DNA from: Roseiflexus sp.
Lineage (GTDB): Bacteria; Chloroflexota; Chloroflexia; Chloroflexales; Roseiflexaceae
NCBI GenBank assembly: GCA_025062325.1
Contig: JANXAL010000008.1
Span: 1-37,006, forward strand
Direction of reading: 5' to 3'
Length of the DNA stretch: 37,006 bases
The translations under genes were made by a program, and so were the position numbers. Positions 19,995-24,197 of the stretch are shown one piece after another. The notes under the pieces are model-generated. The model worked only from the letters and a program-made list of their open reading frames with translations. It was not told the origin of the DNA and searched no databases. Each line of letters starts with the position of its first letter. Position 1 is the first letter of the stretch.

Positions 19995-20756
19995 TCATCC
20001 GGGAATCGGCGCTCCGAGGGTGCGCTCAACAAGCTGCGGCAACACTACTGCAACATCGGCGCGGATCACTGCCTCGGCGCGCCCGTCCATATGGGTCGGA
20101 CCGGTATTGATGATAATCAATTTCGCGCCGTGGCGCAAGCCTATGGCGGGCAATTCGTTGACGGGGAAGACTTCCAGCGAGGTTCCGGCGACAATGATGA
20201 CATCAGCATGCTCGACGGCGCGCCGCGCCAGCCAGTACAACCCGCGCGGCAGCATCTCGTCGAACAGCACTACATCCGGTTTGAGCGGGCAGCCGCAACT
20301 GCACCGCGGCGGCTCACCACGGCGGATTTTGGGGAGCAGAACGTGGGTGGGAACCTGACGTTCACATTCCAGGCAGGTGGCAGTGCGCAGATGCCCGTGC
20401 AATTCGTAGACTTCGCGCGACCCGGCGCGCTGATGCAGCCCGTCGAAGTTCTGGGTGATAATCGCCTTGAGCACGTTCTGGCGCTCGAGCGCTGCCAGTG
20501 CGTAATGCGCCGCGTTCGGCGCAGCGGACAGCACCCGGTCGAGTAAAGGGCGGAACCAGTCGTAGAATGCACGTGGATTGCGCAGAAAATTCTGGAGCGA
20601 GGCGACTTCCAGGGGATCGACCTGCTTCCACGCACCTTCAGGACCGCGAAAATCAGGGATGCCGGATGGCGTGCTGATGCCTGCGCCGGTGAGCGCAACA
20701 ACATTGTGCGCATTCCGTAGCAGATCGGCGGCGTGTTTGATTGCGTCGCTGCTCAT
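19995..20756 (-). CDS. NAD-dependent protein deacylase, Sir2/CobB family
   Basis: 253 residues from the ATG at 20756 (AAGGTG lies upstream); an in-frame ATG at 20783 is less likely. The sirtuin signatures are in order: NAD-binding ALTGAGISTPSGIPDFRG near residues 20-40, TQNFDGLHQRAGS, catalytic His in ELHGHL, a four-cysteine zinc module (CLEC ... CSCGC), and VAGTSLEVFPVNELP with IIINTGPT near the end. It would remove acyl groups from lysines using NAD+, for example on acetyl-CoA synthetase; the target is not shown here. It lies 22 bases upstream of the prfB GTG on the same strand, so the two may be co-transcribed. Confidence 0.9.
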   Translation of the reverse strand: MSSDAIKHAADLLRNAHNVVALTGAGISTPSGIPDFRGPEGAWKQVDPLEVASLQNFLRNPRAFYDWFRPLLDRVLSAAPNAAHYALAALERQNVLKAIITQNFDGLHQRAGSREVYELHGHLRTATCLECERQVPTHVLLPKIRRGEPPRCSCGCPLKPDVVLFDEMLPRGLYWLARRAVEHADVIIVAGTSLEVFPVNELPAIGLRHGAKLIIINTGPTHMDGRAEAVIRADVAVVLPQLVERTLGAPIPG

Positions 20757-20919
20757 GAGACGATCACCTTCAGCATTCAGCACAGATCACGCTCGCCATC
20801 TCCAGCAGATGGTCGGTTCTGTCACAATGTTGCGCGAATGTTGCCCGACGCGGCAGTTTGGGAGATGTGCACTATTCTTGCTTGCATGATACCACATATT
20901 CGCAACATCCGAAAGAGCG

Positions 20920-20990: not shown

Positions 20991-21081
20991 CCACGGATTG
21001 ACACGGATCGAGACAGATGCACACGGATTGACTTCCCTGGATCCGTGCGAATCCGTCGTATCCGTGCCAATCCGTGTCCCG
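20991..21081. repeat. Family B repeat: compact copy forming a long inverted repeat
   Basis: Left arm units CACGGATTGACACGGATC and CACACGGATTGAC face right-arm units GGATCCGTGCGAATCCGTC and CCGTGCCAATCCGTGTCCC. The two arms, each about 40 bases, are imperfectly complementary and almost touch, so the transcript could form a long hairpin right before the gene at 21117. Confidence 0.65.
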
Positions 21082-21116: not shown

Positions 21117-21845
21117 ATGAGGACCGGTCACACGCCCGACATTCCCGAGTCGCTCCGTTGCGCAGCGTGCGGCGCGCTGCTGATCGACGGGTATTATTTC
21201 ATTCACGGACGGCGCGAACGCTACTGCGCACGCTGCATCCGTGAACGGGATCGCTGCGATGTCTGCTCGGCGCCGCTCGGCAACCGCTACTGGACATTGC
21301 ACGATGGGCGGCGGCTATGCGAGACGTGCCATGCGACGGCGATTTACGATCCGCATGTTGCGCGGATGTTGTTCGATGAAACCGTTGCCGCGATCGTCGC
21401 CCAACTCGGCATGGTGCTGCGGGTCGGGGTCGAGTTCCGGTTGGTGGACGCGCCGACGCTGGCGACGGTGCGGGCGCAGGACAGACCGCCGCAGCCGGGG
21501 GAGGCGCCAGCGTTGGGGTTGTATCAGCGCCGCGGTCGGTTGCGCGTTATCTATATGCTCTACGGGTTGCCAAAGTTGCTCTTCCGCACCGTTGTTGCGC
21601 ATGAATACGCGCATGCCTGGCAGGGCGAAAACTGCCCGCTCCTCAACGACCACGACCTGATCGAGGGGTTCGCCGAATGGGTGGCGTACCGGCACCTCAG
21701 TTACCTCGGCTGCCACAAAGCCGCCGCCGCCATGCGCGAGTCGAATCACCCTTACCGCCCGCTGCTCGAACGCATACTGGCGCTCGAAGCGCAGATCGGT
21801 CCGGCGGGCGTGCTGGAGTACATGCGGCGCGCGGGGGTGCGGTGA
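21117..21845 (+). CDS. LIM-like double zinc-ribbon protein with HExxH peptidase-like domain (DA1-like)
   Basis: 242 residues from the ATG at 21117, which has AAGGTG eight bases upstream. An in-frame extension to 20946 would begin with TTG and translate repeat DNA, so I reject it. Cys15/18/37/40 and Cys47/50/68/71 form two zinc modules with LIM-like spacing. The rest carries GLPKLLFRTVVAHEYAHAW with His162-Glu163 and His166, and Glu183/Glu187 in IEGFAEWVAYRHL as the third ligand candidate. This arrangement recalls the plant DA1 family, where LIM domains precede an HExxH peptidase. The substrate is unknown. Its stop shares a base with the next ATG (TGATG). Confidence 0.75.
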   Translation: MRTGHTPDIPESLRCAACGALLIDGYYFIHGRRERYCARCIRERDRCDVCSAPLGNRYWTLHDGRRLCETCHATAIYDPHVARMLFDETVAAIVAQLGMVLRVGVEFRLVDAPTLATVRAQDRPPQPGEAPALGLYQRRGRLRVIYMLYGLPKLLFRTVVAHEYAHAWQGENCPLLNDHDLIEGFAEWVAYRHLSYLGCHKAAAAMRESNHPYRPLLERILALEAQIGPAGVLEYMRRAGVR

Positions 21846-21961
21846 TGTTCCAGAGCATTGACGAAGCGCGCGACGTCACTGCTATTGCCCGCCGGATCGC
21901 CAGGTTGCTGCTCCTGTCGAAGGACCTCGACGCGAACTATCGGCGGGTTGCCTCCCAGTGA
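21845..21961 (+). CDS. Small ORF (38 residues) coupled to the LIM-like gene
   Basis: Starts at the ATG that overlaps the upstream stop as TGATG and reads MFQSIDEARDVTAIARRI, then RLLLLSKDLDANYRRVASQ. It is probably helical. The tight overlap is the main argument that it is translated; I do not recognise a family. It could also be a chance extension. Confidence 0.4.
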   Translation: MFQSIDEARDVTAIARRIARLLLLSKDLDANYRRVASQ

Positions 21962-21990: not shown

Positions 21991-22037
21991 GAACACGGAT
22001 ACACACGGATTAAGTAAGACGGATGGATACGGACTGA
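21991..22037. repeat. Family B repeat, single arm
   Basis: GAACACGGATACACACGGAT followed by AAGACGGATGGATACGGACTG matches the left arm of the 23878-24197 element. No opposing arm is seen nearby. Confidence 0.5.
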
Positions 22038-22655: not shown

Positions 22656-23759
22656 TTACCTTTTCCGCACCACGAGCAGATCGCCCTCGCGGGTGGCGCG
22701 GACGGCGCGGATGCCGCGCAGACGCGGCGGCAGCGGCACGTGCCGCCGGTAGGGTCCAACCCGCACGATCAGGTCGTCGCCGCTGAGGGTCAGCCCGATA
22801 GCGCCCTGCGGCAGACCGGGGAGTTCAAAGGTCAGCGCCGGTTCGCCGCGATACTCGTTGCCGATGGGCGAACGCACCTTGACCGCACCCGCGTCTCCCA
22901 TCGCGCGCCCGGCGAGCAACAACGGCATGTGCCCGCCGGTGACTGCGCTTATGTCGAGCCGGAGCAGCGGTCGCGTCGACCAGAGCGCAGCGGCTTCGTC
23001 GAGCAGCGCCGCCTGCAACCGTTCGAGCGGCGCCAGGCGCGCATCTTCGGGGTTGGGCGGCAGGAGCGGACCGGCGACTAGCGCGCCGACGGTCACGCCG
23101 TGCAACTGAATGGCGGGGATCGCCAGGCGCGCCTCTGCCAGCGCTGCTGCGTCGGGACGCAGCACGTAGCAGACCATGCTCGCAGGCGCGTCGAGCAGGC
23201 TGCGCAGACGTTCGGCTTCCGCCAGCACGCGCCGCAGATTGCTCGTGAACTCCGGCGGCAGCAGCAACCCCGGCAGCAGTGACCCCTGCGCGGGTTGCCC
23301 GTCGAGACCGATGAGCAGCCGCGCAACCCAGCGCAGATTATCGGGAACGCCAAGCGCCGCGATCAACGGGTCGTGCGGACCGGCGTCCACCACAACGCGC
23401 TCGTATTTGGGAGCAAGCTCGCGGAGACGGATCAGCGCAAAGGCAGCGTCAGAGGTGGGGGGTTGGGGGAGTTCATCACTATCGAGGTTGTTGAAAGGCG
23501 GTAGTAAGGAGGTGCGGGTTTCTTCCCAGGCGGCTGCCAGTTCACTGCGGGCATCGAGCGCCAGGGCGTCAAGGCGCGGCGCGACTTCCACCGGCGTATT
23601 GCCGACTGTCACGCCCAACAACGCGCTCAGTCCTGTTATCGAACCATATGTTAGCAGCAACGTGCGCTTGCCAGCGTCAGCGGAGCGCGCTGCCTCCGCC
23701 GCTGCTGCGATACTGATGCCCACGCCGGGCGATCCCGTGTAGATGAGGATTTTGGCCAC
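22656..23759 (-). CDS. ArsA-family ATPase-like protein with degenerate P-loop
   Basis: 367 residues from a GTG at 23759. The layout is that of ArsA/Get3 proteins: an N-terminal MAKILIYTGSPGVGISIAAA, VVVDAGPHDP as the Walker B-like/switch region, and a C-terminal ~70-residue small beta domain of the ArsA_HSP20 type (GAIGLTLSGDDLIVRVGPY, VPLPPRLRG). The P-loop that should read GKGGVGKT is GSPGVGIS here, so both signature lysines are missing and ATP hydrolysis is doubtful. It may be a non-catalytic partner of a canonical ArsA homologue elsewhere. It stands alone between repeat-filled gaps, and the ribosome site is weak (GGAAAG far upstream). Confidence 0.75.
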   Translation of the reverse strand: MAKILIYTGSPGVGISIAAAAEAARSADAGKRTLLLTYGSITGLSALLGVTVGNTPVEVAPRLDALALDARSELAAAWEETRTSLLPPFNNLDSDELPQPPTSDAAFALIRLRELAPKYERVVVDAGPHDPLIAALGVPDNLRWVARLLIGLDGQPAQGSLLPGLLLPPEFTSNLRRVLAEAERLRSLLDAPASMVCYVLRPDAAALAEARLAIPAIQLHGVTVGALVAGPLLPPNPEDARLAPLERLQAALLDEAAALWSTRPLLRLDISAVTGGHMPLLLAGRAMGDAGAVKVRSPIGNEYRGEPALTFELPGLPQGAIGLTLSGDDLIVRVGPYRRHVPLPPRLRGIRAVRATREGDLLVVRKR

Positions 23760-23877: not shown

Positions 23878-24197
23878 GGAACACGGATCCGCACGGATCA
23901 GGACGGATGCGGAAGGATTGAACAATTATGTCAGCGCGTGAGAGTCCTTCGCATGGCGAGCCGATGCCTGAGTGCTCTGTTCCAAACGACCTGTTGACTG
24001 TTCAGCGTTCGGCGCTGGCTTCGACAGGCTCAGCCAGCGCCACGGCGCGCGACGCCTGCCGACCGTATCCCCAGAGCGATCAAGGTCAAACGTGGCGACG
24101 GCGGGAGCGCGCCGGTGAAAGCATTTCCGCCAGCCAATGCAGGCGATGCGCAACCCAATCCGTATGAATCCGTCGAATCCGTGTGGATCCGTGTCCC
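23878..24197. repeat. Family B MITE-like element with ~42-base inverted ends
   Basis: The left arm 23878-23920 (GGAACACGGATCCGCACGG...) and right arm 24156-24197 (...GTGTGGATCCGTGTCCC) are imperfect inverted repeats built from CACGGAT words. The 235-base interior has no supported gene but holds a perfect hairpin, GGCGCTGGCT (24011-24020) with AGCCAGCGCC (24032-24041). It fills most of the 523-base gap between the ArsA-like and fumarase genes. Confidence 0.6.

Follow-up and report, generated by a model that had tools for sequence, protein, structure and literature searches.

A putative zinc metallopeptidase with a LIM-like double zinc module and a DA1-like domain in Roseiflexus and related bacteria

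In this study, we analyzed a stretch of 37,006 nucleotides from Roseiflexus sp. (contig JANXAL010000008.1 of assembly GCA_025062325.1; hereafter, the window), whose forward strand carries a gene for a putative LIM-like/DA1-like zinc peptidase of 242 amino acids (21117..21845, ATG start, TGA stop). Only 14 residues precede a LIM-like double zinc module that extends from Cys15 to Cys71 (21159..21329, same strand; C-x2-C-x18-C-x2-C-x6-C-x2-C-x17-C-x2-C) and whose CxxC pairs start at residues 15, 37, 47 and 68. Residues 77-242 (21345..21842, same strand) were assigned to an M1-like (gluzincin) peptidase domain on the basis of a match to Pfam family PF12315, the predicted structure and a structural match to M1 enzymes. 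This domain contains the putative zinc-binding/catalytic motif HEYAH (residues 162-166, 21600..21614 on the forward strand), followed by Glu183 (21663..21665, same strand), probably the third zinc ligand (HExxH-x16-E), and by Glu187. A previous sequence-only reading had noted eight cysteines in two modules and then HEYAH with a downstream glutamate, and both the coordinates and the motifs proved to be as it described.

The reading frame of the peptidase is open upstream as far as 20946; however, the ATG at 21117 appeared to be the likely start, because similarity to the genus relatives begins at residue 3 and short repeats lie upstream. These repeats (ATCCGTG/CACGGAT) are interspersed in the intergenic DNA surrounding the gene and its neighbors, in direct and inverted orientation, at 20992-21076, 21994-22035, 23882-23906 and 24160-24193; the pattern, which was picked post hoc from the sequence, matched 14 times against 4.3 expected, and 1 of 100 shuffles reached 14. 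The closest named relatives of the peptidase were from Roseiflexus metagenome-assembled genomes (92% identity). No stretch resembling an export signal was seen by eye, and we took the protein as cytosolic. The gene is flanked by a Sir2 gene (19995-20783) and an ArsA-like ATPase gene (22656-23759), both on the opposite strand and identified by Pfam; the same two families flank the gene in L003, and a Sir2-like ORF was recognized by eye at least in L136. Rfam reported nothing in the window at gathering scores, and the promoter/terminator scan gave no signal above shuffles. The peptidase had no NCBIfam match. An anti-phage defence reading was considered and rejected for the peptidase itself, the protein scanned, which had no PADLOC match at E <= 1.

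Family membership was examined by hmmscan of the window protein against Pfam. The LIM family (PF00412) scored 32 bits against a curated cut-off of 22.9, the best stretch covering profile positions 28-56 of 58, and the DA1-like family (PF12315) scored 27.7 bits against a cut-off of 25 over residues 138-204, a modest match that is limited to profile positions 75-141 of 213. When the window's genome was searched in six frames, PF12315 again picked up the peptidase gene (27.3 bits) and matched none of the 14 control genomes, whereas the LIM family missed this gene. At E <= 0.01, 49 of the 50 aligned members matched PF12315 and 46 matched LIM; when the distant members L042, L045, L046, L048 and L050 were scanned singly, none reached the PF12315 cut-off. 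The Peptidase_M1 family (PF01433) gave 22.7 bits in the window protein, below its cut-off of 27.7, and weak matches in 34 of the 50 members. PDB searches by sequence returned only LIM proteins and aminopeptidases, with weak E-values (best 0.087 and 0.0029). The sequence-only reading had proposed a prokaryotic DA1 relative with LIM-like zinc modules and had named DA1 similarity of the HExxH part as a check; the two above-cut-off Pfam matches agree with this proposal. On the other hand, the N-terminal ubiquitin-interacting motifs (UIMs) of plant DA1 were not among the Pfam matches of the 242-residue protein at E <= 1. With no UIM among these matches, ubiquitin control of the bacterial peptidase is unsupported. 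Searches for ubiquitin and E2 with PF00179 and PF00240 had no match in the window's genome and likewise none in the 14 control genomes, so that they carry no information on the presence of these proteins.

Conservation was assessed in a 50-row family alignment (A1) that excludes L034 and L041, whose genes are truncated or split. H162, E163, H166, W168, E183 and Y213 never varied, and Y164 was also invariant in all 50 members. Since Glu187 was kept in 45 of the 50 and Glu183 in every one, the latter is the likely third zinc ligand, which favors Glu183 in a choice that the sequence-only reading had left between the two. All eight cysteines were present in 49 members, the exception being a Bacillota record (L050) that has no LIM part. 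The linker between the second and third pairs measured six residues in all 49 members with pairs; the last three spacings between pairs were 18, 6 and 17 in 44 of 50 members and 17, 6 and 17 in five, one member having no pairs. The same six-residue linker repeats along the whole array in the inspected proteins with eight to sixteen pairs. Within the genus, dN/dS values of the peptidase were 0.067, 0.053 and 0.058 against L002, L003 and L136, respectively, and these sequence comparisons indicate purifying selection.

The structure prediction that the sequence-only reading had suggested gave a confident whole-protein AlphaFold2 model from the family alignment (pLDDT 94.0, pTM 0.90), in which the catalytic part adopts a predicted M1-type fold. 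Foldseek found nothing in the PDB for the whole model at E <= 0.001; VIA-align, applied to the Foldseek list, superposed residues 77-242 on E. coli aminopeptidase N (2dqm; Z 11.7, 2.6 A over 144 residues) and also matched LTA4 hydrolase (3fts; Z 10.8). Because of the Foldseek result, the M1 assignment rests on VIA-align, the sub-cut-off Pfam M1 match and the motif. Predicted alone, the zinc module had a pLDDT of 90.8, and the first 16 Foldseek matches of this isolated module were all LIM proteins, at E >= 0.056 and with rmsd of about 8-15 A. VIA-align gave Z <= 3.2 and a poor whole-domain superposition on LIM, perhaps because of the six-residue linker, and single zinc modules resembled treble-clef units of the ZZ, RING and GATA types over about 36-45 residues. 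No clear family for the zinc part alone emerged from these comparisons, which is not evidence against one. The zinc part is therefore best termed LIM-like; of the 'two modules' of the sequence-only reading, the two zinc modules stand, but they form one LIM-like unit and not two LIM domains.

A search of the class matched the peptidase in 58 of 158 genomes at E <= 0.001, including the window's own and two (G018 and G151) with only 20-22 bits, mostly with one match per carrying genome. In the profile search of the phylum, 80 of 400 genomes were matched at E <= 0.001, of which we counted the 72 with over 50 bits; the remaining eight matched only in part, at 31 bits or less. A collection of species genomes provided 49 loci. 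The aligned Chloroflexales members have four CxxC pairs in a short form without other domains. Longer arrays were present in other lineages: eight pairs in five Anaerolineae-type members (L038, L039, L040, L043 and L048, the last with a record titled Chloroflexi) and in two Acidobacteria records, 12 pairs in one Omnitrophota record (L042), nine in another (L044, whose contig starts there) and 16 in L045. Hydrophobic stretches near the start, resembling export signals by eye, were seen in L042, L046 and L047. A record titled Candidatus Gracilibacteria (L041, JAAUTF010000172.1) carries a split LIM-DA1 gene that is Chloroflexales-like and 57-66% identical to that of the window, and this genome is probably mis-binned or mis-assigned.

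The neighborhood of the gene varied among lineages. Our tallies cover genes within 3 kb on the same strand and count loci rather than events, as they include near-copies and contigs too short to show both neighbors. Not counted are L130, which is a distant second copy in G015, and L134, L135 and L140, which repeat the places of L009, L004 and L016. Of the 37 genomes that lie outside the order and scored over 50 bits, the neighborhoods of 27 were covered. No kinase, phosphatase, FHA, VWA or cyclase gene was found within 3 kb in the window, L002, L003 or L136. A UvrD-type helicase gene adjoins in 14 of the 32 other loci from the species-genome collection (Chloroflexales by title or matching genome, one of them titled Gracilibacteria), where it follows LIM-DA1 (L006, L010-L014, L018, L021, L022, L025-L028 and L032) and in several cases starts inside or just past its stop codon. 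In five Chloroflexus-type loci (L030, L031, L035, L036 and L049), the helicase is replaced by a glycosyltransferase, that of L030 being tRNA-queuosine mannosyltransferase-like by Pfam. Among the 27 other loci of the phylum, seven (L110, L111, L112, L118, L120, L121 and L124) have a gene upstream on the same strand for a large protein combining a zinc ribbon, a class III nucleotidyl cyclase, AAA and TPR parts (assigned by Pfam for L118).

One family of VWA proteins (VWA1) recurred beside the peptidase in more than one lineage. It was near the gene in all five Anaerolineae-type loci and in three of nine Roseiflexaceae loci, four of these nine being from one genus, and in none of the 27 other phylum loci, the 32 other loci, the three f3-family loci or the six loci from other phyla. 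In L016, from a further genus of this family, VWA1 is about 4.5 kb away, and with this locus counted it was near in four of the six genera seen; the window's genome has a VWA1 orthologue on another contig (G000:C126). The gene order in L038, L039, L040 and L048 is PP2C, Ser/Thr kinase, FHA-FHA-ABC, LIM-DA1 and VWA1 (Pfam assignments for L048 and parts of L040), followed in L039, L040 and L048 by a second VWA gene (VWA2), and L043 reads LIM-DA1, VWA1, VWA2 from the contig start. In a tree of 22 VWA proteins, nine VWA1 rows from LIM-DA1 loci were separated from five VWA2 rows with 100/100 support; of the L158 rows labelled VWA1, one was on a very long branch and the other grouped with VWA2. L158 itself (G043:C1:5360000-5378000) is an Anaerolineae-type-like PP2C/VWA cluster without an adjoining peptidase gene. 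When near genes of nine Roseiflexaceae loci were compared by BLAST with those of 32 other loci, VWA1 was the sole family adjoining LIM-DA1 in both sets; other families common to the two were ABC-transport genes beside L004 and scattered single matches. These gene-order data provide evidence for an old, although not universal, link between LIM-DA1 and a VWA protein.

Sequences and model together demonstrate family membership, conserved putative catalytic and zinc ligands, and a confidently predicted fold in one piece. The product of the window gene is probably a bacterial DA1-like peptidase, cytosolic and zinc-dependent, that combines an active site of the M1/gluzincin type with a LIM-like double zinc module. 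The protein is quite probably a working zinc peptidase, in which H162, E163, H166 and E183 would provide zinc binding and catalysis. That its substrates are specific proteins, bound through the LIM-like module, is an evenly balanced proposal: the enzyme may cut a small set of partner proteins rather than digest peptides in general, and the module may dock a substrate or a regulator and hold or gate the active site. By analogy, the LIM-like module could matter for catalysis, because in plant DA1 the C274Y change in this module abolished peptidase activity as well as ubiquitylation (Dong et al. 2017, PMC5322733). The pair affected by C274Y corresponds to the third CxxC pair (Cys47 and Cys50) of the window protein. 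Also by analogy, activation might occur through protein contact in signalling networks and not through ubiquitin, which would make the protein the regulated protease that the sequence-only reading had considered possible. Signalling neighbors (VWA and class III cyclase proteins) in several lineages favor this reading, but they are not constant.

Two other accounts of the protein were weighed against this DA1-like peptidase reading. The protein might be mainly a scaffold or a zinc-dependent binding protein whose peptidase fold is little used, that is, a pseudo-enzyme or a very weak enzyme, and both the short Chloroflexales form without other domains and the neighbors that vary by lineage are compatible with such a role. 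However, if the protein were a pure scaffold, E163 should have been lost in some members, whereas the four putative catalytic and zinc-binding residues were invariant even in the LIM-less L050, so that we regard this account as improbable. We consider it similarly improbable that the protein is an M1-type housekeeping aminopeptidase for peptide trimming in which the LIM-like part only stabilizes the fold. Its best structural matches were indeed M1 aminopeptidases, and about two thirds of the members showed the weak Peptidase_M1 match, but the window protein stayed below the curated cut-off of that family, the structural match took in no more than about 145 residues of an M1 enzyme, and the substrates of DA1, the nearest characterized relative, include proteins, for instance its E3 ligases (Dong et al. 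2017, PMC5322733).

A further account concerns a tiny ORF of 38 amino acids (21845..21961, forward strand), whose ATG shares one base with the peptidase stop codon and which the sequence-only reading took for a coupled inhibitor or adaptor, making the locus a two-gene unit. Neither Pfam nor NCBIfam nor PADLOC matched it at E <= 1; tblastn over the loci returned the window's own copies plus matches at E >= 1.1, and of six genus genomes, only that of the window and G068, the latter at a contig end, gave a match at E < 0.6. The similar stretch in G068 lies beside the same ArsA-like gene, which speaks for the two-gene account; G068 had no LIM-DA1 match, but as the contig breaks off just there, the missing match need not mean a missing gene. 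On the other side, the DNA of L002, L003 and L136 is similar only up to the peptidase stop codon and the tiny ORF does not lie behind the gene there, while the comparison with G068 gave a weak coding signal (over 33 codons, 5 synonymous changes against 7 non-synonymous ones, with the stop moved by one codon). The tiny ORF was rejected as a partner of the peptidase on grounds of this non-conservation; it is most likely a chance or recent ORF, and a two-gene unit is highly improbable.

For the DA1-like peptidase, the gene order PP2C, kinase, double-FHA-ABC, LIM-DA1, VWA and VWA in the Anaerolineae type, together with the VWA orthologue in some Roseiflexaceae, hints that proteolysis by LIM-DA1 could be the output of a signalling module built on phosphoproteins and VWA proteins, although we consider this rather unlikely. 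If it were true, plant DA1 would have inherited a signal-gated LIM peptidase, with ubiquitin control replacing phospho-signal control. The recurring VWA neighbor is a candidate partner or substrate, and such neighbor links make this reading testable. The small bacterial proteins, that of the window being without UIMs, may offer a simple test bed for how a LIM-like module switches a peptidase on; the role of the LIM-like module in activation is a question that Dong et al. (2017, PMC5322733) left open. The striking layout turned out to be an already curated Pfam pair that had already been mentioned for this genus, which is a lesson for genome scanning.

Compared with known systems, the window module shares with canonical LIM domains eight zinc ligands in four pairs and a Pfam LIM score above the cut-off, but it has a six-residue linker and all of its ligands are cysteines, whereas canonical LIM domains have two residues between their zinc modules and a histidine as third ligand. 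With M1 aminopeptidases and LTA4 hydrolase, the window protein shares the predicted fold of residues 77-242 and HExxH with a downstream glutamate; it differs in matching the catalytic core only and in its x16 spacing, M1 enzymes having x18 between HExxH and the glutamate. The closest likeness in layout is to the plant DA1/DAR peptidases, named family M102 (PMC8643629), in which a LIM-like module with four CxxC-type pairs also stands ahead of an HExxH peptidase. The DA1 motif is HEMMH-x15-EE (Dong et al. 2017, PMC5322733), and its second glutamate is spaced as in HEYAH-x16-E183; the window protein differs in having no UIMs, no separate canonical LIM domain and only 242 residues. DA1 kinship of this kind of Roseiflexus protein is already in print: plant DA1-family proteins were described as highly similar to predicted Roseiflexus proteins with four CxxC/H pairs, with Burroughs et al. 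2011 cited there (Dong et al. 2017, PMC5322733). The sequence-only reading had set a well-described bacterial family of known function against its proposal; such kinship was found, but no bacterial function is described in the available part of that paper. A search of titles and abstracts, which did not extend to Burroughs et al. 2011, found no paper on bacterial LIM-DA1 gene neighborhoods. Our analysis adds the uniform six-residue linker, the longer arrays in other lineages and the changing neighbors, any of which may already be in print. As far as that source goes, the predicted Roseiflexus proteins mentioned by Dong et al. (2017) belong to the same genus group as the window protein and have the same layout.
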